Positions 5,599-64,000 of a DNA stretch of 64,000 nt are shown here, piece after piece. Source of the stretch: Haloechinothrix halophila YIM 93223 (GTDB lineage Bacteria; Actinomycetota; Actinomycetes; Mycobacteriales; Pseudonocardiaceae); the NCBI RefSeq assembly GCF_000504245.1, contig NZ_KI632509.1, positions 557,723 to 621,722 of the forward strand, written 5' to 3'. The position numbers and the translations under genes are program-made. The first letter of the stretch is position 1, and the number at the start of each line of letters is the position of its first letter. The notes under the pieces were generated by a model that saw only the letters and a program-made list of their open reading frames with translations, ran no database searches and was not told the DNA's origin.

Positions 5599-6713
5599 CG
5601 TCCCCGAGCGCGGCGGCGCGGCTGGCTCCCTTTGGCGCCGCCGTCGCCGCCGCACTCGCGGGCGCGCTTGCCGGTGCCGGGCTCACGGTGGCGACGCCGG
5701 TGACTGGCATCGCCGATCCCGGCACCGGTGTGCTGGTCGCACTGCCGCTCGTCCGGGCGCTGCTCGGTGTAACGGCGGCGGCGACCGTGGGGCTCTGCCT
5801 GCTGCCGCTGCTCCTCGGGACCGGCGGTCCCGGTGACGGCAGCGGCCCTGGCAGCAGCCGAGACACCGCCGACCGCGCGGAGCCCGTGCTGCACCGGGCC
5901 CGCCGGTGGTCGGTGGTGACGTCGATGGTGTGGGCAGCGACGGCCGTCACCGCATTGCTGCTGCACACCGCCGAGTTCACAGTGCAGGCCGACGCCATCG
6001 GCCTCGCCGACGTCGTAGGCTACGTCACCACGGTCGGCACCGGCAAAGCGCTGCTCGGCGTCATCGTGCTGACGCTGCTGCTGTGCGGGCTGAACGTGCT
6101 CGCCGTCCGGCACCGCGAACGGGTGCCCGCCGAGATCCGCACCGGGCTCGGGGTGTTCGCGCTGCTCCCACTGCCTGCGACCGGGCACGCGGCGGGCTGG
6201 CTGGGGCAGGACTACGCCGTCGTCGCGCTGGAACTGCACGTCATCAGCGCCGTGGTGTGGCTCGGTGGTCTCGCGGCGCTCGCGGTGTCGCTCGCCAGCG
6301 ACACCGCGCTGCTCGCCACGGCACTGCCCCGGTTCTCCGTGGTCGCCACCGCCTGCATCGCGACCACCGCGGTGACCGGCACGATCAGCGGCCTCACCCA
6401 GCTCGGCACGCACGGCTCGGTATCGGTCGCGGCGATATCGGCCGCACTGATCGGCACGCCCTATGGCGCGCTGCTGCTCGCCAAGCTGGTGTGTTTCGGC
6501 GCGATCGCGCTCGCGGGCGCGAAGATGCGCTGGCGCATTCTGCCCGCCGTCGTCGCGAGCCATGACGAGAGCGCACGAATCAGGACGCACGACGGTAGCC
6601 AGCGAACCCGTACCCGTCGCCCGGCCTTCGTCGCGTGGGCGAGCGCCGAACTACTCCTCCTCGGACTCGCGTTCGGCATCGCGGCCGTGCTCTCCCGCGC
6701 CGGTTTCGGTTGA
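5595..6713 (+). CDS. copD: CopD-like copper-resistance membrane protein
   Basis: 372 residues with about nine hydrophobic helices, CopD/PcoD type. Conserved His residues occur in ATGHAAGW, ELHVISAVVWLGGLAAL and the TAEF/HT segment. The start is the ATG of the ATGA overlap with copC at 5595-5598; upstream codons in that frame are copC antiframe. It is normally thought to move copper from periplasmic CopC across the membrane. It is the last gene of the ycnI-copC-copD unit. The family is clear; direction of transport is not readable from sequence. Confidence 0.88.
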   Translation: MTSPSAAARLAPFGAAVAAALAGALAGAGLTVATPVTGIADPGTGVLVALPLVRALLGVTAAATVGLCLLPLLLGTGGPGDGSGPGSSRDTADRAEPVLHRARRWSVVTSMVWAATAVTALLLHTAEFTVQADAIGLADVVGYVTTVGTGKALLGVIVLTLLLCGLNVLAVRHRERVPAEIRTGLGVFALLPLPATGHAAGWLGQDYAVVALELHVISAVVWLGGLAALAVSLASDTALLATALPRFSVVATACIATTAVTGTISGLTQLGTHGSVSVAAISAALIGTPYGALLLAKLVCFGAIALAGAKMRWRILPAVVASHDESARIRTHDGSQRTRTRRPAFVAWASAELLLLGLAFGIAAVLSRAGFG

Positions 6714-6885
6714 TCCATTTGGCCCAGTGGGTGACTAGTCGGGCCGAATTTCCGCCCGTTCGGCACCCCCGTGTGATCAAAACGGTGAACGGTATCCCCG
6801 CGTCGATGAACGCCGCCATTCGAGTGGGTAGTTCCGCGCCGAAACGGCGTTTCACCCGCTTCGCCGGACTCCCGCCAGGTCACCA

Positions 6886-6965
6886 CGATTCAGCGCGGAC
6901 GGTGCAACTCGCGCCAAATACGGTGCGACTCGCGCCAAATACGGTGCGACTCGCGCGATTCAGCG
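6886..6965. repeat. Second three-unit 21-bp tandem repeat, flanked by 10-bp direct repeats
   Basis: The core GGTGCRACTCGCG starts at 6901, 6922 and 6943 with the same order (A-variant first, then two G-variants) and the same 21-bp period as the array at 121. The spacers are CCAAATAC-like. The 10-mer CGATTCAGCG occurs on both sides (6886-6895 and 6956-6965), the second copy spanning the stop codon of the phosphotransferase gene. This looks like a target duplication or a local duplication. The array lies between convergent genes. Confidence 0.8.
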
Positions 6966-7856
6966 GTAGCGCGTCCAGCGTGCGTCGCGGTCGCCCGCCC
7001 TGATGTCGGCGAGCCGCCGCTGGAACTCCGGCCGCACGCCGGGATGGCTGCGCAGGATCGGCAGCACGCTCGTTGTCAGCTTCAGCTCCCGCGCCGCCTG
7101 CAGCACCTCGAAGCCCTCCCAGGCCATGACGTCGAAGCCGTAGGCGTCCGCCAGCTCCTCGTACACCGCCATCGGGTCGCCGAACCGCAGCACACCCAGC
7201 GCGACCGGCATCAGGTCCCACTCCGGCGGCCCGACCCCCGACGAGTCGAAATCGCAGAGCACGGGGCCGTCCTCGCCGACGAGGACGTTGCCGAGATGGG
7301 CATCGCCGTGCAATAACGCTGGCCGCAGCGGGAAGGCGAGCGCGTCGAGCTTGGCCTGCACCTCATCGCACCGGTCCAGCAGGAACCGGCGGTCAGCGAG
7401 GTCCAGCTCCTCGGCGTCGGCCACCCGGGAGCGGACGTCGGTCAGCGGCGACCAACCGGGCAGCCCCTCGGGCACTGGCAGCACGTGCACCTGCCGCAAC
7501 AGCCGACCCAGGTCGGCGGGCGCTGCGCGCACCGGTTGCTCGCGCACCCGCCACCACAGCGTCGCGACGTGCTCACCCGCGCTGACCGGCTGCTCGACCC
7601 CCGGGTAGAGCCGCACAGCGGGGACGTCGTGGCGGGCGAAGTGCTCAGCGACGGCGACCACCTTGGCGACCCGGTGCCGCAGCGTCTCCGAGCCCACGAT
7701 GCGCACCACGACCGGCGCGCTGGCCAGCGAGTACACCGCGTTGTTCGTGAACCGCAGCAGCTCGGCACCCGCCGAGTCGAGACCAGCCTGGCCACAGACG
7801 TCGGCCAGCGCGGCCTCGAGCTTGTCCCGTGTGAAGCGCGGATTCTGCTCCTGCAC
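6960..7856 (-). CDS. Phosphotransferase (APH / kinase-like fold) enzyme
   Basis: 298 residues of the aminoglycoside phosphotransferase/choline kinase superfamily. The catalytic loop HGDAHLGN is at 183-190 and the metal-binding CDFD at 201-204; VVVRIVG (49-55) fits the ATP-lobe strand. Such stand-alone genes phosphorylate small hydroxylated molecules (sugars, choline, antibiotics), and the substrate cannot be read here. It lies 28 bp downstream of the XRE-TPR regulator on the same strand, so it may be cotranscribed with it. The stop codon falls inside the duplicated 10-mer that flanks the tandem repeat. Confidence 0.85.
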   Translation of the reverse strand: MQEQNPRFTRDKLEAALADVCGQAGLDSAGAELLRFTNNAVYSLASAPVVVRIVGSETLRHRVAKVVAVAEHFARHDVPAVRLYPGVEQPVSAGEHVATLWWRVREQPVRAAPADLGRLLRQVHVLPVPEGLPGWSPLTDVRSRVADAEELDLADRRFLLDRCDEVQAKLDALAFPLRPALLHGDAHLGNVLVGEDGPVLCDFDSSGVGPPEWDLMPVALGVLRFGDPMAVYEELADAYGFDVMAWEGFEVLQAARELKLTTSVLPILRSHPGVRPEFQRRLADIRAGDRDARWTRYR

Positions 7857-18050: not shown

Positions 18051-18133
18051 TTGATCAACTTACCGCGCGCTGTGACCACTAGAACCGGTCGAACCGGACA
18101 TCGGATGGTCCTAACGCGCAGGAAGTTGATCGA
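18051..18133. repeat. Imperfect inverted repeat between convergent genes
   Basis: Arms of 28 nt (18051-18078 and 18106-18133) match at 22 of 28 positions; both contain GATCAACTT/AAGTTGATC and a GCGCG-rich part, with a loop containing AACCGGTCGAACCGG. It sits between the ends of the CitE-like gene and the PLP gene. It could be a bidirectional terminator or a decayed mobile palindrome; it is not the 48-nt element found elsewhere in the window. Confidence 0.6.
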
Positions 18134-18201
18134 CTTCGGGAAAAGCGGGCGCGGCAGCCACCAGCGGCCCCTCGCCGCCACGGCGCCACCGACGCAGGCC
18201 G

Positions 18202-19251
18202 CTAACCCACCTGCTCCAGTGCCTGGGTGATGTCCGCCCACAGGTCGTCCGGGTCCTCAAGGCCAACGGAGAACCGCAGCGCACCGGCAGGGACGTGCGC
18301 GTCGCTTGGCCGGGCGGCCCTGCGTTCCAGCGTGCTTTCCGCTCCGCCCAGGCTCGTCGCGTGCCGGATCAGCCGCAGTCCCGCGCAGAACGCGTCCGCC
18401 GATGCCGCGTCAGCGAGTTCGAACGACACCACGCCACCGCCGATCGACGGGTACCGGACGTCCACAACGGACGGATGCTCGCGCAGCCGCTTCACCAGCT
18501 CCGACGCCGTCGCGGAGACCGCCGCATATCGCACCGGCAATGTCCGCATCCCCCGCAGCGCCAGCCACGCCTCCAGGGCCCCAGGGGTCGCACCACCCCG
18601 CCGCCGGGCGGCGCGAATTTGCTCGGCGAGGCGTTGGGACGACACCACCGTGACCCCAAGCAAAAGATCGCTGTGCCCGCCGATCAGCTTGGTCGCGCTG
18701 TGCATCACGACGTCCGCGCCGAGCGACAACGGCTGCTGGCCGAGCGGCGTCGCGAACGTATTGTCCACCGCGACGATCGGCGGGTCGTCGGCAGCGGCAG
18801 CCGCGGCGGTGATCTCCGCGATGGGCATCTCGAACAGGCTCGGGTTCGTGGGTGACTCCAGCCAGAGCAAGTCCGCTTCGCCCGCCGCGGTCAGCCAGGC
18901 GTCGATGTCGCGGGGGTCGAGCCGCCGCGCGCGCAGCCTGCCGCTCGCCTCGGCGTGACCGAGCATGTCGCGCGTCCCGGCGTAGCTGTCAGTCGGCACG
19001 GCAACCTCGGCGCCACTCGGCAGCAGGTCGAACACCGCGGAGATCGCGCCCATGCCGGACGCGAACGACGTCGCGTGCCCGCCTTCCAGATCACCGACGG
19101 CGTCCTCGAACGCGCGCCAGGTGTCGATGCCGTCCTCGCGGGCGTAGGCGAGCCCCAGGTGGCTCGCGGGCGTGATCGGCACGTTCGCCGGATCGCCTTC
19201 GCCGTCCTGTCTTCCTGAGTTGACCGCCCTCGTGCGTGCCGACCAGTTCAT
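18202..19251 (-). CDS. Cys/Met metabolism PLP enzyme (cystathionine gamma-synthase/lyase type)
   Basis: 349 residues, slightly short for the ~380-residue family. ATSFASGMGAISAVFDLL forms the PLP phosphate site, LESPTNP is at 132-138, VDNTFATPL has Asp163, and HSATKLIGGHSD places the PLP lysine at 188. The C-terminal domain includes the family's VRYP and RHATSLGG-type segment (LIRHATSLGGAESTLERR) and ends FSVGLEDPDDLWADI. It catalyses gamma-replacement or elimination on cystathionine or homoserine esters. Family assignment is firm; synthase versus lyase is not resolved. It is monocistronic. Confidence 0.88.
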   Translation of the reverse strand: MNWSARTRAVNSGRQDGEGDPANVPITPASHLGLAYAREDGIDTWRAFEDAVGDLEGGHATSFASGMGAISAVFDLLPSGAEVAVPTDSYAGTRDMLGHAEASGRLRARRLDPRDIDAWLTAAGEADLLWLESPTNPSLFEMPIAEITAAAAAADDPPIVAVDNTFATPLGQQPLSLGADVVMHSATKLIGGHSDLLLGVTVVSSQRLAEQIRAARRRGGATPGALEAWLALRGMRTLPVRYAAVSATASELVKRLREHPSVVDVRYPSIGGGVVSFELADAASADAFCAGLRLIRHATSLGGAESTLERRAARPSDAHVPAGALRFSVGLEDPDDLWADITQALEQVG

Positions 19252-52859: not shown

Positions 52860-53723
52860 TCACACCGGCTCCCCGATCAAGCCAAGCAGCGCCTCGTAAC
52901 TCCCAGCCTGCTGCTTGGGCACCTGGTTCACCAGCGCGCCGTGGACGATCATGCGCTCGCTGTTGCCGTACTCGGGGTGGCATGTCGTCAGTGTGACCAG
53001 CGATGCCTGCTGCGCCTTCGGCAGCGGATTCTCCGGCCGGTACGGCACCGGCGCGACGGCGTCACCTCGATCGGGCGTCACGATCCTGCGGCCGACGGTG
53101 CGACCGTACGGCCCGCCCTCCGGCTGCCCAGCCTTGCGCAGCGACGGCACCCTGGCGCACCGAGGATCGCGCTGCTTGACCGACTCCCAGTTGGCGACCT
53201 CGTCCGGCATCGGCATAACGCGGTAGACGAAGAAGTCGGTCTCGGTCTCCAGGACGATGGCATCGCACGAATTGAGCTTGTCGAGGTCGTTGAATGGCGC
53301 GCCCTTGCCGATCCGGTGACCGGCGATGCCGACGTTGCCTGGCTGGCCGGGCAGAGCGGTGTCGGGATAGTGGCCAGGCCCGATCTCGAGCTCAGCCGAG
53401 CCGACCCCCTCGACGATGACGAACTGAAAGTCCTTGCCGAAGTGCGGGATGTAGATCCGCGCGAACCCGGCGCCCTGCTCGGGCTTCGCCGGTCGCTTGG
53501 GCTTCTTGTCCTGCTGGGCCGGCTGCTGTGCGACCGGAGCCGCCCACGACCGCTCCAGCTCGTCGTTGACACCGTCCTGCTTCTTCGCCGCCACGATGTC
53601 GGTGACATACAGGGTGTAGACGACGAACAGCAGGACGACGACACCGAAGGTGATCATGAGCTCGCCAAATGTCCGCACGATGACGACGAGGGCGCTCGTT
53701 CGCTGCCGCTGCCTGCTTCCCAC
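52860..53723 (-). CDS. srtE: Class E sortase
   Basis: 287 residues: an N-terminal membrane helix (LMITFGVVVLLFVVYTLYV), a Lys/Pro/Gln linker, and a sortase barrel from ~86 with the catalytic His136 in GIAGHRIGK, Cys248 in TLTTCHPEY and Arg257 in NSERMIVHG. The His-Cys-Arg triad is complete. Class E enzymes anchor LAXTG proteins in actinomycetes. It is divergent from crgA. A possible substrate in this window is the LPTTG protein at 57761. Confidence 0.93.
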   Translation of the reverse strand: MGSRQRQRTSALVVIVRTFGELMITFGVVVLLFVVYTLYVTDIVAAKKQDGVNDELERSWAAPVAQQPAQQDKKPKRPAKPEQGAGFARIYIPHFGKDFQFVIVEGVGSAELEIGPGHYPDTALPGQPGNVGIAGHRIGKGAPFNDLDKLNSCDAIVLETETDFFVYRVMPMPDEVANWESVKQRDPRCARVPSLRKAGQPEGGPYGRTVGRRIVTPDRGDAVAPVPYRPENPLPKAQQASLVTLTTCHPEYGNSERMIVHGALVNQVPKQQAGSYEALLGLIGEPV

Positions 53724-53870
53724 GGCTCTCCTCCTCGGCTCCCCCGTTCTCGGAACGTCGCGGCTACGTTAACGTGGTGGTAGACGACGGTTGCGGGCGC
53801 ACCTGCGAAGAGTCCCCACCCGGCGAGGGTGCGCTCATCGCGCCGTCCAGCGTGAAGGAGACAGACGAGC

Positions 53871-54137
53871 ATGCCCAAGTCCAAGGTACGCAAGAAGACG
53901 GCGTACACACCGCCCGCCAACAAGAACACGGCGGTCAAGGTTCGCGCGCAGGGTCCGTCGCACCCGGTCTACCTAGCCGTGATGTTTGGCCTGATGCTGC
54001 TCGGGCTCGCCTGGATCGTGGTGAACTACCTGGCTGGCCACCGGATCGACTTCCTGGCCGAACTCGGCAACTGGAACTTCGCGATTGGCTTCGCGCTCAT
54101 GATCACGGGGTTGCTGATGACCATGCGATGGCGCTGA
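53871..54137 (+). CDS. crgA: CrgA: small divisome membrane protein
   Basis: 88 residues: a basic N-terminus (PKSKVRKKTAY), two helices (YLAVMFGLMLLGLAWIVVNYL and the C-terminal WNFAIGFALMITGLLMTMRW). Size and layout match CrgA, which coordinates FtsZ, FtsQ, FtsI and CwsA at the septum in mycobacteria and times division in Streptomyces. ATG follows GAAGGAG. Divergent from the sortase gene. Confidence 0.96.
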   Translation: MPKSKVRKKTAYTPPANKNTAVKVRAQGPSHPVYLAVMFGLMLLGLAWIVVNYLAGHRIDFLAELGNWNFAIGFALMITGLLMTMRWR

Positions 54138-54172
54138 AAAGTGTGAATTACACCACTGTGTCGAATCCCCAC

Positions 54173-54224
54173 TGTGGATAAGCCCTGTGGATAAGCACCC
54201 TGATCAGGGGCCTCATGTGGATAA
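54173..54224 (-). promoter_or_regulatory. Three perfect DnaA boxes
   Basis: TGTGGATAA, the complement of the consensus box TTATCCACA, occurs at 54173-54181, 54186-54194 and 54216-54224, all in the same direction. The first two centres are 13 bp apart and the third 30 bp further. They span the crgA/PH-gene junction and the PH start. Confidence 0.75.
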
Positions 54225-54648
54225 CCCGGGGTCAATCTGGGGACCGAAACCGTCACTCCTAGGCATCGGCGCAGCTCTGACGCTGTGCGCGGCGGCTGCC
54301 ACCGCCTGGTTCGCGACCGCCGATGACGCGCAGGGTGCACTGCTGCTCGGCGTGTTCACCGCCGCGGCGGCGATGGCAACCGGCTACGGCCTGCTAATCC
54401 GGCCCCGGCTGCGTGCGGATGCCGACGGCGTGCACGTCCGCACCCTCGCTGGGACGGACTACGCACCGTGGCGCGCGGTGCATGCACGGCTGGTGAGCGC
54501 CCGCAGGCTCGGCAGGGACAGCACCACGCTGGAGATCGAGTTCGACGACGTCAGCGAGGAACCGAGGCTCGCGGTGCTTGGCTGGCTCGATCTCGGCGCC
54601 GAGCCGAGCGACGTCCTTGACGACCTCAACCGGATCAGGCCGACGTAG
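54217..54648 (+). CDS. PH-domain-like small membrane protein (Rv0010c type)
   Basis: 143 residues from GTG 54217: two helices (LLGIGAALTLCAAAATAWFA and LLLGVFTAAAAMATGYGLLI) and a PH-like beta domain (RLRADADGVHVRTLAGTDYAPWRAV) found in actinobacterial proteins beside crgA. GTG 54217 was chosen because AGGGG lies 6 nt upstream; GTG 54187, ten codons earlier and itself in a DnaA box, lacks a ribosome site. The last 14 bp overlap the convergent rhomboid gene. Function unknown. Confidence 0.8.
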   Translation: MDNPGSIWGPKPSLLGIGAALTLCAAAATAWFATADDAQGALLLGVFTAAAAMATGYGLLIRPRLRADADGVHVRTLAGTDYAPWRAVHARLVSARRLGRDSTTLEIEFDDVSEEPRLAVLGWLDLGAEPSDVLDDLNRIRPT

Positions 54649-55582
54649 CGCCGACCGCGAAGCAGATCTGCGGCGCGTTGCGGCAGATGTACTCCGTCGT
54701 GAGCTGAGCATCGCGGGTCAGCACGATGCCGATCAGCGCGACGAGCAGCAGCACCAGGACCGTCGTCTGCATCGTCACCCTGCGTTTCTCAGGCGCGTAG
54801 ACCATCGCCGCGGTCGCCAGCGCGCCGATCACCAGGCCGCCAAGGTGGCCGAGCAACGAGATCGCCTCGATCTGCACGCTGATGAACAAGTTGATGGCGA
54901 TGATGCCGATGACCGGCGTCGCGTTCAGCTTGAGCCGCAGCACGGCGATCAGCACGCCACCCAGCACGCCGTACACCGCGCCGGACGCGCCCGCCGTCGA
55001 CTTCAACAGGCTCTCGAAGGCGAACACCGCGACGCTGCCGCCGAGCAGCGAGAGCACATACACGGCGACGTAGCGGACCCTGCCGAGTAGCAGTTCGAGA
55101 TCCCTGCCGAGCAGCCACAGCGCCAGCATGTTGACCGCGAGGTGGAACGGCCCGAAGTGCAGGAAACCCGACGTGACCAGCCGCCACCACTCATCGTCGA
55201 CGGCGATGGCTGGTGTGAACAGCGTGCCGTCGGTGAACAGCGGTGACACCTGATTGGTCATCAGGCTCTGCGCCTGCGCCGCCGTCACGATGAACACCGC
55301 GACGTTGATCGCGATCACCACCGGCGTGACGATGGCTCGCGACGACGCCCGCGCGCCCGCGACGGTGCGGTAGCCGAAGCCGGACTTGCGATACTCCGAT
55401 GCCCTCGCCTTGGCCTCTTTCCGTGCCGCGTTGACGCAGTCGACGCACTGGTAGCCGACCGATGCCTCCCGCAGGCAGTCCGGGCAGGCGGGACGGTCGC
55501 ACCGCACACAGCGCAGCCCGGTCTGCCGGTTCGGATGCCACCAGCAGGTGTTCATCGTGCCCTGCTCCGCCTGCTCGGACAC
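54635..55582 (-). CDS. Rhomboid intramembrane serine protease with N-terminal zinc-binding region
   Basis: 315 residues. The N-terminal ~50 hold a B-box/zinc-like CxxC set (CVRCDRPACPDCLREASVGYQCVDC with a WHPN pattern). The rhomboid core has six or more helices, with catalytic Ser200 in GASGAVYG and His246 in LLGHLGG; HLAVNMLALWLLG is the conserved helix-2 stretch. GTG 55582 is close to the ppiA stop; ATG 55555 has a better ribosome site (GGAGCAGGG), so it may be the real start. Cleaves membrane proteins; target unknown. Confidence 0.9.
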   Translation of the reverse strand: MSEQAEQGTMNTCWWHPNRQTGLRCVRCDRPACPDCLREASVGYQCVDCVNAARKEAKARASEYRKSGFGYRTVAGARASSRAIVTPVVIAINVAVFIVTAAQAQSLMTNQVSPLFTDGTLFTPAIAVDDEWWRLVTSGFLHFGPFHLAVNMLALWLLGRDLELLLGRVRYVAVYVLSLLGGSVAVFAFESLLKSTAGASGAVYGVLGGVLIAVLRLKLNATPVIGIIAINLFISVQIEAISLLGHLGGLVIGALATAAMVYAPEKRRVTMQTTVLVLLLVALIGIVLTRDAQLTTEYICRNAPQICFAVGATSA

Positions 55583-55589
55583 CGCGGTG

Positions 55590-56138
55590 TCAGTCCTCGT
55601 ACTCGACGGAGACGCGCTCGATCACGATGTCTTCGAGCGGCCGGTCAGCCGTGCCCGTGGCCGTCGTGGCGATGGCGTCGACCACGTCGCGGGATTCCTG
55701 GTCGGCGACCTCGCCGAAGATCGTGTGCTTGAAGTTCAGGTGCGGCGTGCGCGCGACCGTGATGAAGAACTGCGAGCCATTGGTGCCCGGCCCCGCGTTC
55801 GCCATCGCCATCAGGTAGGGGCGGTCGAACTGCAGCTCGGGGTGGAACTCGTCGCCAAAGCGGTAGCCAGGGCCACCGCGACCGGTACCGGTCGGGTCGC
55901 CAGCCTGGATCATGAAGCCGTCGATGACCCGGTGAAAGATCGAACCGTCAAAGAACGGGCCTTCGGTCTCATTCTTGGCATTCGGCTGCGAATAGTACTT
56001 CGTGCCTTCCGCGAGGCCGACGAAGTTCGCGACCGTCTTCGGCGCATGGTCTGGAAAGAGCACCAGCCTGATGTCGCCGAGAGTGGTGTGCAGCGTTGCC
56101 GTGGACGCCCGGCCGGGCGATTGATTGCTTTCAGTCAC
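55590..56138 (-). CDS. ppiA: PpiA: cyclophilin peptidyl-prolyl isomerase
   Basis: 182 residues, cyclophilin fold. FHRVIDGFMIQAGDPTGTGRGGPGY and LAMANAGPGTNGSQFFIT-type segments (here MAMANAGPGTNGSQFFIT) contain the Arg, Phe, Gln and other active-site residues. There is no signal peptide, so it is cytoplasmic. It precedes the rhomboid gene in the same direction and may be cotranscribed with it. Confidence 0.95.
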   Translation of the reverse strand: MTESNQSPGRASTATLHTTLGDIRLVLFPDHAPKTVANFVGLAEGTKYYSQPNAKNETEGPFFDGSIFHRVIDGFMIQAGDPTGTGRGGPGYRFGDEFHPELQFDRPYLMAMANAGPGTNGSQFFITVARTPHLNFKHTIFGEVADQESRDVVDAIATTATGTADRPLEDIVIERVSVEYED

Positions 56139-59454: not shown

Positions 59455-60570
59455 TCACAGTCGCTTCGCGGAACGGAACGAGCGAGCGTACAAACCGCCA
59501 CCGTCAAGCAACGACGCTCCGCCGACGTCGCTCATCGTTGGTCCATCGATCTTGGCGCGACTGGACAGGAAGCGGTGGCGCCCCTCGGTGTCGACGCCGA
59601 GATAGATACCCGTGTGATCCAGCCTCGGGCCCGTGGTCGGATCGTTGTCGAAGAAAAGCAGGTCCCCCGGCTGGAGCCTGCCGTAGGCCGTGGCTTTGAC
59701 CTGCCGGTCAGGGATGATCTGAATCCCGGGGCCGACAGTGCCGATCTCGTGTGCCCGCCGCGGCAACGCGGACGTGGCCGTCGCGGTGGACGACAACGGG
59801 AAGCCACCCCGGTAGCCATAAACCAGCCGAACGTAACCAGAGCAGTCCACCGCGCCGTAACGACGCTTGTCCGGGTACCGCACCCCTTCAGGGCCGAAGT
59901 CCCAGCTGATGCCGAGGTAGTCGTAGAAGTCGTTCTGCTGGTCACGACCGACCCTGCTCTCCGGGTTCAGTGGCCCGAACGAGGCGTCACCCCGCACCCG
60001 TACGCCGTCAGCATTGCGCCGTTCGGCAGCGCCGTGAACGTACTGCATGCCGATAGCCAGGATGTCCGGCTGACTACCAGACATCTTCTTCCGCAGCCAC
60101 TCGCCGAACCATGGCTCGGACTGCATGCCCTGCCGCCACGGCCGCGGCAGCAGGTGCACGTACGCCCTCGTGCTGACCGCGGCACCAGGGAACTGATCCT
60201 CGGCCAGCCTGCGCCGCTTGCCATACGTCACCGCGGTGCGCGCTCCGTCGGTCAACGTCGCCAGCACCCTGCCATCGGCGTCACGCACGACCGTCCTGGC
60301 GGGGTCGGAGATCCGCTCATAGGTGAAGTCACTCGCGCTCACGCTCGCCGCGAATTCGGCCTTCGGCTGCCGGTTCACGGTCAGCCCTTCTGGGGCCATC
60401 ACCGCTGCCATCGGCTGGGGATCCTCCTGGTTGCCACCCACGATGGTCACCAGCACCCCTGACACGGCGATGACAACCGCAAGCACCGCGATCTCGGCGG
60501 CCTTGACCCTGCCTCGTCGCCCCTGACGCATGTAACGCTCTCCTCTTTGTCTCATCACGGCCGGCATCAC
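59455..60570 (-). CDS. NlpC/P60 hydrolase of the poly-gamma-glutamate operon
   Basis: 371 residues: an N-terminal membrane anchor (IAVLAVVIAVSGVLVTIVG), a ~170-residue unknown region, and a C-terminal NlpC/P60 domain from about 210 with Cys243 in VDCSGYVRLVYG, His319 in RLDHTGIYLG and QPGDLLFFDN. NlpC/P60 enzymes cut gamma-D-Glu linkages; PgdS of Bacillus, in the same family, hydrolyses poly-gamma-glutamate. It overlaps pgsC by 4 bp. It most likely trims or releases the polymer, though peptidoglycan remains possible. Confidence 0.85.
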   Translation of the reverse strand: MMPAVMRQRGERYMRQGRRGRVKAAEIAVLAVVIAVSGVLVTIVGGNQEDPQPMAAVMAPEGLTVNRQPKAEFAASVSASDFTYERISDPARTVVRDADGRVLATLTDGARTAVTYGKRRRLAEDQFPGAAVSTRAYVHLLPRPWRQGMQSEPWFGEWLRKKMSGSQPDILAIGMQYVHGAAERRNADGVRVRGDASFGPLNPESRVGRDQQNDFYDYLGISWDFGPEGVRYPDKRRYGAVDCSGYVRLVYGYRGGFPLSSTATATSALPRRAHEIGTVGPGIQIIPDRQVKATAYGRLQPGDLLFFDNDPTTGPRLDHTGIYLGVDTEGRHRFLSSRAKIDGPTMSDVGGASLLDGGGLYARSFRSAKRL

Positions 60571-61049
60571 AACGACGGCACCAGGCCTACAAGCACTCCA
60601 CTGACCAGCACGCCGTACCCGGCGACGCTGACCGTCGCCGTAGCGCCCAGCGTCGCGATCGGCGGCTGGCGCACCAGTTGGTAGGCGATCAGTCCCGGAA
60701 TAACGAAAATCAACGTCTGGTGCGCAAAGATCAGCGGATAGTCATGCTGGACGATCATGAAAAACGTCGTCTGCAACACCACGCCAAGCAACACGACGGC
60801 GGCGAAGAGCCGCTTGCCGTAGAGGATCACCAACCGCTGCATGACGCGGGTTCCGGCGAAAGTCAGCGCGGTGACCAGGACGATGATCGCGATCTTGCGC
60901 AGATCCTCGAGCATGGTCAGTGCCAGCCAGCCTGGCGTGATCATCCCGCCAGGCGACAGGTTGGTTGTCAGATAGCACACCAGCGAGAACACCAGCCCGA
61001 TTGCCAGCCCCAGGGTCGCCACTTCAGGGCTCAGCGTTTCCGAGATCAC
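60567..61049 (-). CDS. pgsC: PgsC/CapC, poly-gamma-glutamate synthesis membrane protein
   Basis: 160 residues, about four to five helices. LSPGGMITPGWLAL and MQRLVILYGKRLFAAVVLLGVVLQ match the CapC/PgsC pattern (SPGG-x3-PGYLAL and LYGRRRF). It partners PgsB in polymer synthesis and export. Overlaps pgsB and the NlpC/P60 gene by 4 bp each. Confidence 0.9.
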   Translation of the reverse strand: MISETLSPEVATLGLAIGLVFSLVCYLTTNLSPGGMITPGWLALTMLEDLRKIAIIVLVTALTFAGTRVMQRLVILYGKRLFAAVVLLGVVLQTTFFMIVQHDYPLIFAHQTLIFVIPGLIAYQLVRQPPIATLGATATVSVAGYGVLVSGVLVGLVPSL

Positions 61050-62251
61050 CGCGACGCCCCCATCCGCGCTGGCTCGCTCGCCGTCTTCGACGCCGCCAGC
61101 CGGTCGATCAGTACTTCGCCCTGCCCGTGGATGTTGCCGATGGCCACGACGGAGACCGAAGACTCCTCACTGTCGGCGATCTCGGCCAGCATCTTGTCGA
61201 TGTCTGGGTTATCGCCGCGGTCGAGCACGCGGTCCTGCCACTGGCTCGGAATGGTGCTCCGTGCGCTGCGAACCGGCTCCCCGATCAGGGCCACACCGTC
61301 CGGGTCGATATCGGCGATGAGGGCGCCCATCTGCTGGTTTCGTTCCATGCGGTCGGTCCTGCAATTGATCACGACGTGCAACGGCCGTGCGATGGCCCGC
61401 TGCGCAAGCAACCGTTTGATGTTCATCAGGGTCGATTCCGGGTCGTTCGCGGCGAACACGTTGGCGAAATGCACCGGCGTGCCGTGCACGGTGTACTCCT
61501 CGACGCTCAGCGCGCCAGGGTCCGGCGGCGCCGCGATCATGCCGATAAGCGCATCGCGCCTGCTGACGCCGAGCAGTTCTGCGACCTTCAGCGCGATGGC
61601 GACGTTCTCCTTGAACATGATGGAGCGAAAGCCCCGCATCTCAGCGTCTGACACTGACTCCGGATCCACCGCGATCAGCCGGCAGTCGCGGGCATCCGCC
61701 TCTTCGCGCAAGATCGACAGCCGTTCGCGCTCCGCGGTGACGCAGACTCCCCCGATCGGCATCGAACGGCACAGGGAACGGGCGACGTCATCGAGCGTCG
61801 GGCCCATCTCGGCGAGGTGGTCCTCCCGCACGTTGCACAACACACCGATCGTGGAGCGGATCAGCTTCTCCTGGTTGATCTCCTGCAACGCCGGGTCGAC
61901 GGCCATGCACTCGATGACGAGGGCTTCCGGCCGGTACGCCGCGGCATTACGGACGATCCCGATCTGCTCAACGACGTTGGCGACACCGAACTTGCGATAC
62001 ACCGGCACCTCGCTGGCGTCCGGGTAGATGATGCGAGCCGCGGTGCCGGTTGTCTTGGCGAAGGTCGTCATGCCGCCTCCGCGCAGCGCACCAGCACACA
62101 GCCGGGTAATAGAACTCTTGCCGCGAATTCCGTTGACCAGCACCCGGTGTGGGATCGACTCAAGGTAGAAGTAGTGCCTGCGCTGTTCGATGATGCCCGC
62201 GACGAACAGCAAGAAGCACAGGCACAGCAGGAGGACGTAGAGAAACAACAC
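61046..62251 (-). CDS. pgsB: PgsB/CapB, poly-gamma-glutamate synthase ATPase
   Basis: 401 residues: an N-terminal helix (YVLLLCLCFLLFVAGII), then a Mur-ligase-type ATPase domain with VNGIRGKSSITRL at 40-52 (P-loop GIRGKSS), YRKFGVANVVEQ, ALVIECMAVDPALQ, LCNVREDHLAEMG and VINCRTDRMERN. These are the hallmarks of CapB. It amide-links glutamates through the gamma carboxyl. GTG 62251 follows GAGGG, 5 bp after the upstream gene. Confidence 0.92.
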   Translation of the reverse strand: MLFLYVLLLCLCFLLFVAGIIEQRRHYFYLESIPHRVLVNGIRGKSSITRLCAGALRGGGMTTFAKTTGTAARIIYPDASEVPVYRKFGVANVVEQIGIVRNAAAYRPEALVIECMAVDPALQEINQEKLIRSTIGVLCNVREDHLAEMGPTLDDVARSLCRSMPIGGVCVTAERERLSILREEADARDCRLIAVDPESVSDAEMRGFRSIMFKENVAIALKVAELLGVSRRDALIGMIAAPPDPGALSVEEYTVHGTPVHFANVFAANDPESTLMNIKRLLAQRAIARPLHVVINCRTDRMERNQQMGALIADIDPDGVALIGEPVRSARSTIPSQWQDRVLDRGDNPDIDKMLAEIADSEESSVSVVAIGNIHGQGEVLIDRLAASKTASEPARMGASR

Positions 62252-62256
62252 CGCGG

Positions 62257-64000
62257 CTACCCTCGCCCCCGGCTTCCCGCGCTACGAGGCGGCACACGCC
62301 GGTCCTGGCGGCGCGGCGCTGTCCGTGACATGCCGGAGCGTGGTGCGAAGGCCCTGGGCTGTTGGCCTGCGGGCTGCGGGTGGCCGGGGTGGGCCGCCCG
62401 CTGGCGCTGTGCGGCGGTAGGGCGCGGTCGCACCGGCTGTACCGGTCGCAGCTGTCGTGTGCGCAGATCTGCTGGTCCGAGCTGGCGCAGCGTGCCGAGC
62501 CGGTCGGGCCCGTCGACCAGCGCGCGGCGACACACCTCGAGACAGATCGCGATCGCGCCAATCTCATCGTGTCGCTGCGGGTACAGCACCGTGTTCTGCG
62601 GCGAGCGCAGCATCGTCTCGGCCGACGCGCCGAGCTCCCGCAACGGCCTGACGAACACGAAAAAGTGCCAGCCACCGATGATGATGGCGACGAGCGCGAC
62701 GACCAGTGCGACCATCAACGCCGCACGGCGTTGCTCGACGGCGGGCAACGCCAGCTCCGCGACGGGCTTCTGCGCTACGGCTGCCCACCCCAGCTCAGCA
62801 GCGGCACCGCCGCCGACGACCGGGGCGCCAGCGACAATCTTGGCATCGATGCCGGTGCCGTAGACGTCCGCCGCTGACTGCTTGCCGTCCACTTTGGCCA
62901 GCACCGATTCGACGTCGTTGTCGGTGACCTTTTCGAACGCGATGAAGCCCCCGGAGTCGGCGATGACGCGCTGCCCGGCGTCGACCAGCCGGACGTGTCC
63001 GTGCCGCTGACGTACCAGGTGGAGCAGATACGGCACGTCGAACTCGGCTACCAGCACGTGTCCGGAGCTCTCCAGGGCTGTGTGTGCGTAGACGATCGGC
63101 ACCCGGCCGCTGGTGTTGGCTTGCCGGACACCGTCGCCCTCGGGTACGTCGTCCGCATCGAAGCGCGGCCGCTTGCCCGACACCGCCACGACCTCGCCAT
63201 CGTCGCCGAGCGCCGAAACCGAGCGGTACCGAGACTGACTCGACAGCCTGTCCAGCTGCCCGGCGACCTCGTCGGCGTCACTGGATTCCGCGATCTCACG
63301 CAGGTCTGTGATCCCGCGGTCGAGCACGTCGGCGACGGACACGCTCAGCCGCTGCACCTCGTTCTCGGTGTCGGTCACCAACCGCTCGGGAATGCCAGGG
63401 TCGCGGTCGAATGCTGCCGGCACGTAGGAAGCCCATGCAAGCGCGACCACGACGAAGCCGATCAGGGCCGTAGTCGCGGATACCTGGAGCCGGGGAGCGG
63501 TCATCCCGCGGACTCGCTCGCCCCCGCCAAGTCCTAACTGCACACGGTGCAGCACACCGCTGAGCTTGGCGACCTCGCGTATGCGCGAATGGCGAACCGG
63601 ATTGCCCAGTCCGCCAACCGCGACAACTAGTGAGTCGGCCCGCAGTCGGCGCACCGGACGCACAATGCACAGCCGCAGGACCACGAAACCCACGACCGCG
63701 ACACCGGCGAGGACCGCGAACACAGCGGTAGCGTTGCTGTCCTGCTGTGCCTGCTGGGCGTCGACTTCATCGATGAGCACGACGTGAATTGCCGCTGTCT
63801 TGGTGTCGCCAAGCGCGGCGTAGGTCGTCACCCGTGCCTGCTCGTTCGCAGGATTCGCCGCAGCTGCGGCGTCCTTCGAGTGAGCGCCTTCGTCTAACCG
63901 GGTGACTAAGCTGTCAGCGGGCCGACGCATCGCCGCTGTTTTGACTCGGCTAGCCGCTTGGTCCGCCACGCTGGGGCTAGGCGGAACCCCGGATGTGGCA
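62257..64000 (-). CDS. 5'-truncated receptor-like membrane protein, two Cache-type/TM/HAMP-like units, no output domain
   Basis: The frame is open to the window edge; a GTG at 63969 exists but the frame extends upstream. TM1 is about 63735-63655 (AVLAGVAVVGFVVLRLCIV), followed by a HAMP-like stretch RPVRRLRADS. TM2 is about 63480-63410; a ~220-residue extracytoplasmic sensor region like a dCache domain follows (VVAVSGKRPRF, HVRLVDAGQRVIA); TM3 is about 62715-62630 and a HAMP-like HDEIGAIA. It ends in an Arg/Pro/Gln-rich tail without kinase or cyclase domain. The stop is 5 bp before pgsB, so it is the upstream operon gene. Confidence 0.78.
   Translation of the reverse strand, partial: ATSGVPPSPSVADQAASRVKTAAMRRPADSLVTRLDEGAHSKDAAAAANPANEQARVTTYAALGDTKTAAIHVVLIDEVDAQQAQQDSNATAVFAVLAGVAVVGFVVLRLCIVRPVRRLRADSLVVAVGGLGNPVRHSRIREVAKLSGVLHRVQLGLGGGERVRGMTAPRLQVSATTALIGFVVVALAWASYVPAAFDRDPGIPERLVTDTENEVQRLSVSVADVLDRGITDLREIAESSDADEVAGQLDRLSSQSRYRSVSALGDDGEVVAVSGKRPRFDADDVPEGDGVRQANTSGRVPIVYAHTALESSGHVLVAEFDVPYLLHLVRQRHGHVRLVDAGQRVIADSGGFIAFEKVTDNDVESVLAKVDGKQSAADVYGTGIDAKIVAGAPVVGGGAAAELGWAAVAQKPVAELALPAVEQRRAALMVALVVALVAIIIGGWHFFVFVRPLRELGASAETMLRSPQNTVLYPQRHDEIGAIAICLEVCRRALVDGPDRLGTLRQLGPADLRTRQLRPVQPVRPRPTAAQRQRAAHPGHPQPAGQQPRAFAPRSGMSRTAPRRQDRRVPPRSAGSRGRG

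Follow-up and report, generated by a model that had tools for sequence, protein, structure and literature searches.

PgsA (CapA) is regarded as essential in the Bacillus poly-γ-glutamate (γ-PGA) synthase, and its role is poorly understood. Deletion of pgsA in Bacillus blocks γ-PGA synthesis (reviewed in PMC5751247). Here, we analysed a stretch of 64,000 nucleotides from Haloechinothrix halophila YIM 93223 (hereafter the window), which carries at its right end an operon with capB, capC and an NlpC/P60 hydrolase gene, all on the minus strand and headed by the gene of a large receptor-like membrane protein. Judging from sequence comparisons, we favour with moderate confidence the view that this operon encodes an actinomycete-type synthase of PGA (or of a related γ-glutamyl polyamide), in which the receptor-like protein, not CapA, would be the effectively obligatory third subunit.

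Gene order and association with the synthase

The source genome is a single contig of 5.55 Mb (complete chromosome), and the locus could be followed on a stretch reaching beyond the window end (L003). The receptor-like gene is visible in the window at positions 62257-64000 (minus strand), where it is truncated; it runs 653 bp beyond position 64000 to a start at window-equivalent position 64653 (open reading frame L003 7980-10376) and encodes 798 aa. The start of capB (pgsB; 61046-62251, minus strand) lies 5 bp past its stop codon. CapB is a Mur-ligase-like γ-glutamyl ligase of 401 aa with the P-loop NGIRGKSSITRL, and matches the NCBIfam PgsB model TIGR04012 with 390.6 bits (cut-off 222.7; E 5.8e-117). 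The next gene, capC (pgsC; 60567-61049, minus strand), encodes an integral membrane subunit of 160 aa which matches PF14102 with 116.8 bits (cut-off 27; E 9.4e-34). It overlaps by 4 bp at either end, with capB on one side and, on the other, with the NlpC/P60 gene (59455-60570, minus strand), whose 371-aa product would be a secreted or anchored cysteine hydrolase (PF00877, E 9.9e-8). From these family scores CapB is clearly PgsB and CapC clearly belongs to the CapC Pfam family; a sequence search of solved structures with CapB returned zero matches. A sequence-only reading of the window had proposed that the PgsB, PgsC and NlpC/P60 genes overlap by 4 bp each and that a gene for a large membrane protein lies upstream of pgsB. 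Both proposals agree with the reading frame coordinates, the latter now at full length.

The gene order receptor-pgsB-pgsC-NlpC/P60 expected from that reading was found again in relatives. Our survey of public genomes covered the loci of the 80 best CapB relatives, from Streptomyces, Streptacidiphilus, Amycolatopsis, Actinokineospora, Micromonospora, Phytohabitans and others. A receptor gene lies directly upstream of capB and a capC gene downstream in all 80 loci, and the NlpC/P60 gene is present in 77 of them. This conservation of the receptor-capB-capC order far exceeds chance.

Two further surveys were made independently of CapB. In the source organism's family (390 genomes), CapC scored over the cut-off in 80 and the receptor was found in 79, all of them within the 80; the sole CapC-positive genome devoid of it (G524) carries a duplicated, divergent CapC of classical-like kind. 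Phylum-wide, a single-protein search of 396 genomes gave strong receptor matches (E <1e-20) in five only, all with an actinomycete-type CapC, and CapC-bearing genomes of other, deeper-branching actinobacterial lineages mostly have the classical capB-capC-capA order and no receptor. The receptor-like protein is thus a dedicated part of the actinomycete synthase.

The CapB tree shows the same partition. Receptor-type sequences form a single supported clade (95/92) and classical loci fall in separate clades, with a fine placement that is unsure since the window's row and several classical rows are long branches. The CapB of L016 (JOAA01000013.1), a record titled Rhodococcus rhodnii from a 12.4-Mb genome, groups within Kibdelosporangium and Actinosynnema sequences, and this organism label is probably wrong. 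A third actinobacterial CapB-CapC class was also observed (L107-L109 and L155, the latter from G524), with a low-scoring CapC, duplicated in several cases, beside a divergent CapB.

Architecture and proposed role of the receptor-like protein

Hydropathy prediction places four transmembrane (TM) segments in the receptor-like protein, at residues 41-59, 313-331, 397-415 and 644-662. An hhalign comparison shows its two halves to be homologous (probability 99.6, E 7e-25). An AlphaFold model, obtained from a 51-row alignment with a mean predicted local distance difference test score (pLDDT) of 84.4, displays two modules, in each of which a long helix leads into a mixture of strands and helices, all between the TM helices. 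The second extracellular module (residues ~416-640; 62734-63408, minus strand) matches dCache sensors such as PctA, CtaA, Mlp24 and TlpC with VIA-align Z scores of 15-16.6 over residues 415-640 and root-mean-square deviations (rmsd) mostly of 3-4 Å. The first module is less directly covered by the fold search and is assigned to dCache via its homology to the second.

A HAMP segment could be placed after the second TM helix of either module. The first TM/HAMP segment (residues ~333-376; 63526-63657, minus strand) has a profile match to a chemoreceptor HAMP region (E 5e-5), with model helices at 299-345 and 359-376. The second (residues ~662-714; 62512-62670, minus strand) matches HAMP structures, AF1503 among others (E 7e-4), with a model helix at 697-714. 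The Pfam HAMP model is found in relatives (best E 6.7e-14, up to 52 bits); the window protein alone scores 15.2, below the cut-off. The protein can therefore be summarized as a tandem [TM-dCache-TM-HAMP]x2 followed by a tail, which is disordered, basic and proline-rich, mostly with pLDDT <60 beyond about residue 720. A frameshift in this tail was considered but found no support, as the frame aligns with relatives through the end of the conserved part.

No kinase, chemotaxis (MCP), GGDEF or cyclase output domain was detected by Pfam and NCBIfam scans or in the model. Because of this, and of the low-confidence chain past residue 720, the protein is receptor-like without a recognisable output. 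The sequence-only reading had announced a receptor-like protein with a sensor-like external domain: the external domain is indeed a dCache module, whereas the picture of a usual receptor did not hold, there being two dCache-HAMP modules per chain and no output domain.

Three receptor forms occur naturally among family members. The window carries the fused tandem form. In the split form, capB is preceded by two single-module genes that either adjoin each other or share 4 bp or slightly more (e.g. L113, L144-L149); the ends of these genes are those of mechanically called open reading frames, with lengths of about 330-360 aa if the start has not been called too far upstream. In the short form (L150-L153), the first dCache domain is gone and its flanking TM helices, the HAMP stretch and the entire second module are kept. 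The occurrence of both fusion and fission suggests that the two modules cooperate as a pseudo-dimer. Since the first sensor can be lost, the core of four TM helices and two HAMP segments suggests itself as the indispensable part.

These features can be assembled into a working model. As established for its family, CapB would activate glutamate and extend the chain via the γ-carboxyl, with CapC as its membrane partner. Four TM helices and two HAMP segments in one chain would form a built-in pseudo-dimer and, an output domain being absent, the HAMP segments would most likely act directly on CapB/CapC. In this manner, polymerisation and export could be coupled to an external state, set by a ligand, the growing polymer or the wall. 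At its most general, the model depicts the receptor-like protein as a scaffold which probably controls or couples polymerisation and export. A more specific version, which we put forward only tentatively and hold less probable than the obligatory-subunit view itself, is that an output-less transmembrane sensor gates the polymer synthase directly via a HAMP pair in one polypeptide, so that an outside cue would switch production at the enzyme, CapA being dispensable. If true, this would amount to HAMP signalling without any downstream signalling protein.

CapA, partner hydrolases and surroundings of the operon

No capA gene adjoins the operon on the complete chromosome, including upstream of the receptor gene past the window, so that a capA just outside the window is ruled out. 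The absence of pgsA/capA from the window, noted earlier, therefore extends beyond position 64,000, and the chromosome context supports the earlier description of a PGA-type synthase with a new membrane subunit and no adjacent pgsA. In relatives, a CapA gene is found ahead of the receptor, within the operon, in 35 of the 80 loci (including L082, of divergent type). We also searched for PGA_cap (the CapA family) with the Pfam model in 43 receptor-type genomes, nearly all picked for a locus devoid of CapA (exceptions L082, L083). Some PGA_cap protein occurs in 36 of them and none in seven (L014, L032, L043, L047, L077, L081, L085), which occupy three or more separate positions in the CapB tree. 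CapA is thus an optional addition in the actinomycete receptor-type lineage.

Several observations weigh against an obligatory role of the receptor-like protein in a PGA synthase at this locus. The seven CapA-free genomes are mostly drafts, which makes single absences uncertain, and three are Streptacidiphilus of one clade. The window CapB is a long branch (0.74) in the CapB tree, and genus mates of the source organism lack the operon. Finally, CapC reaches 79.4 bits with the narrower PgsC equivalog model TIGR04011, below its cut-off of 96.45.

The main rival, which we regard as somewhat unlikely, is that the receptor-like protein replaces CapA in a structural or export role, with dCache domains that serve as polymer-binding or spacer domains and sense nothing. 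It would account for the obligate partnership with CapBC, for the dispensability of CapA in seven of the 43 genomes and for the retention of the four-TM core where the first sensor domain has gone. However, CapA coexists with the receptor-like protein in 35 of the 80 operons, and two conserved HAMP segments, a signalling element, are unexpected in a pure scaffold. The earlier proposal that the membrane protein sits in the upstream place of PgsA stands insofar as no capA is adjacent here; the same coexistence speaks against a replacement.

The nature of the product is the subject of a second alternative, and here the hydrolases are informative. The window hydrolase scores 32.4 bits with PF00877 (cut-off 23) and contains the motifs DCSGYVRL and LDHTGIYLG, with Cys243 and His319 conserved in the alignment. 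Its family reaches only about 29-32 bits with the Pfam NlpC/P60 model and weakly matches solved NlpC/P60 structures, and a long N-terminal part has no family match. Its domain family makes it likely to be a polymer or wall trimming enzyme. In one Streptomyces clade (L035, L037, L042, L051, L060, L079), the catalytic Cys is replaced by Ser (VDSSG versus VDCSG), suggesting an enzyme that may be altered or inactive. NlpC/P60 relatives are also divergently encoded beside classical capB-capC-capA in a distant actinobacterial family (L095, L099, L102), and the hydrolase therefore appears to be an old partner of the synthase.

A second hydrolase candidate, which we call f4, is a secreted or anchored protein of ~300 aa encoded in 60 of the 80 loci. 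This conserved neighbour of receptor-capB-capC is usually encoded divergently; several lineages have it in the same direction, with short overlaps (4-bp in several loci) (examples: L031:3797-4702, minus strand; L146:2681-3595; L151:1423-2325; L152 around 6157-7725). Pfam and NCBIfam hold no name for this family, and a sequence search of solved structures yielded a chance match only. Its model (mean pLDDT 90.1) has as best Foldseek match the phage poly-γ-glutamate hydrolase PghP (3a9l, E 9.3e-6). In the structural comparison, PghP reaches a Z score of 13.3 and γ-PGA-bound YndL (5onj) one of 13.2, the top row being 2odf with 14.1, and other zinc hydrolases score just slightly below PghP and YndL. 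The invariant residues His142, Glu150, His205 and Glu277 fit a PghP/M14-like zinc hydrolase fold. Based on the model, the f4 substrate is likely γ-glutamyl, and a γ-glutamyl product of the synthase is supported because this neighbour folds like known γ-PGA hydrolases. The f4 gene is not found at the window's locus; elsewhere in the genome (L160), an f4-like stretch in a 948-aa reading frame is only distantly related and was not used as evidence. In the proposed scheme, the NlpC/P60 enzyme, plus the PghP-fold hydrolase in many relatives, would release or trim the polymer.

These data bear on the possibility that, instead of free PGA or a capsule, the system yields another γ-linked polyamide or an oligo-glutamate bound to the wall. 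The CapC score under the PgsC equivalog cut-off and the presence in the operon of an NlpC/P60 enzyme, usually a wall hydrolase, would fit such a product. With CapB well over the PgsB equivalog cut-off and a partner hydrolase f4 that has the fold of γ-PGA-cutting enzymes, we consider it unlikely, slightly more so than the replacement of CapA.

In a third alternative, an unlinked capA provides the PgsA function in trans and the system is a classical PgsBCA with an extra regulator. The genome contains two PGA_cap genes only, at 1,110,530 and 907,391, ~490 kb and 286 kb off, respectively. The former, capA1, is about 50% identical to the CapA of receptor-type operons, and most receptor-type genomes keep some PGA_cap protein. 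However, two congeners devoid of capBC have copies of capA1 with 87-88% identity, and the gene occurs in many family members free of capBC, which argues that it has another job and disfavours a dedicated trans partner. Given also the seven receptor-type genomes devoid of any PGA_cap protein, a supply in trans seems doubtful, and less probable than either of the preceding alternatives. dCache-HAMP proteins are common regulators, so that the receptor gene might simply be an unrelated one adjoining capB; the strict co-occurrence with CapC, no strong receptor being found apart from it, and the adjacency in 80 of 80 loci make this highly improbable.

The ~1.2 kb upstream of the receptor-like gene are devoid of any clear intact gene; next come a small gene in divergent orientation and the gene of a NACHT NTPase. 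Within the interval (L003:10541-11497), a match to an LppA-like lipoprotein is limited to part of one frame; it resembles a decayed gene and may mark an insertion boundary. The NTPase adjoining the operon beyond the window is of NNH1-NACHT type (L003:12964-16281), and farther on lies a pair formed by an unassigned 418-aa protein (L003:16896-18152) and a DUF5131 protein (18106-18978). Judged by its gene content, the region seems to be a variable one that may include defence genes. A tRNA-borne island was ruled out for the operon, with zero tRNA in L003. On the window side, the operon is flanked by genes for a sortase, CrgA, a rhomboid-like protease and a cyclophilin (52860-56138), an ordinary actinomycete core cluster.

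Comparison with described systems

Taken together, these results point to a natural synthase class with the receptor-like protein as a near-invariant third part and CapA as an optional one; it is widespread in Streptomyces, Amycolatopsis, Micromonospora and relatives. This class would make the separate roles of CapA and of the receptor-like protein testable, and leads to the prediction that many antibiotic-producing actinomycetes make a glutamate polymer which has been overlooked.

Among dCache-HAMP sensors, the chemoreceptors PctA, CtaA and Tlp3 and the sporulation kinase KinD share with the receptor-like protein the dCache fold, the TM helices and HAMP. In contrast to these, it fuses two modules per chain, has no kinase, chemotaxis or GGDEF output and always lies beside the polymer synthase. 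Alpha2-delta and CACHD1 are auxiliary membrane proteins which also combine at least two Cache domains with the lack of a signalling output. Both are among the top Foldseek rows, with long alignments of poor rmsd that support an analogy of composition only; unlike the receptor-like protein, they are eukaryotic and have no HAMP. The operon hydrolase, like PgdS and other NlpC/P60 endopeptidases, has its NlpC/P60 domain within a PGA operon; it differs from them by the low family score, the unmatched long N-terminal part and the Cys to Ser change in one Streptomyces clade.

Classical-order actinobacterial capB-capC-capA loci encode homologous CapB and CapC, and some have a divergent NlpC/P60 homologue; unlike the window type, they carry CapA directly downstream, lack the receptor and belong to separate CapB clades. 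As in the Bacillus systems PgsBCA(E)/CapBCA(E), CapB (TIGR04012) and CapC (PF14102) share an operon and have a hydrolase gene close by, whereas here the leading gene encodes a tandem dCache-HAMP protein, and CapA is either missing or optional. Among open-licence papers, we found none that deals with genes for PGA synthesis in Streptomyces or Amycolatopsis, or with HAMP proteins in connection with PGA. Many soil actinomycetes thus appear to possess an apparently undescribed version of the Bacillus system, in which B and C are kept, A is optional and a near-invariant new subunit has been added.

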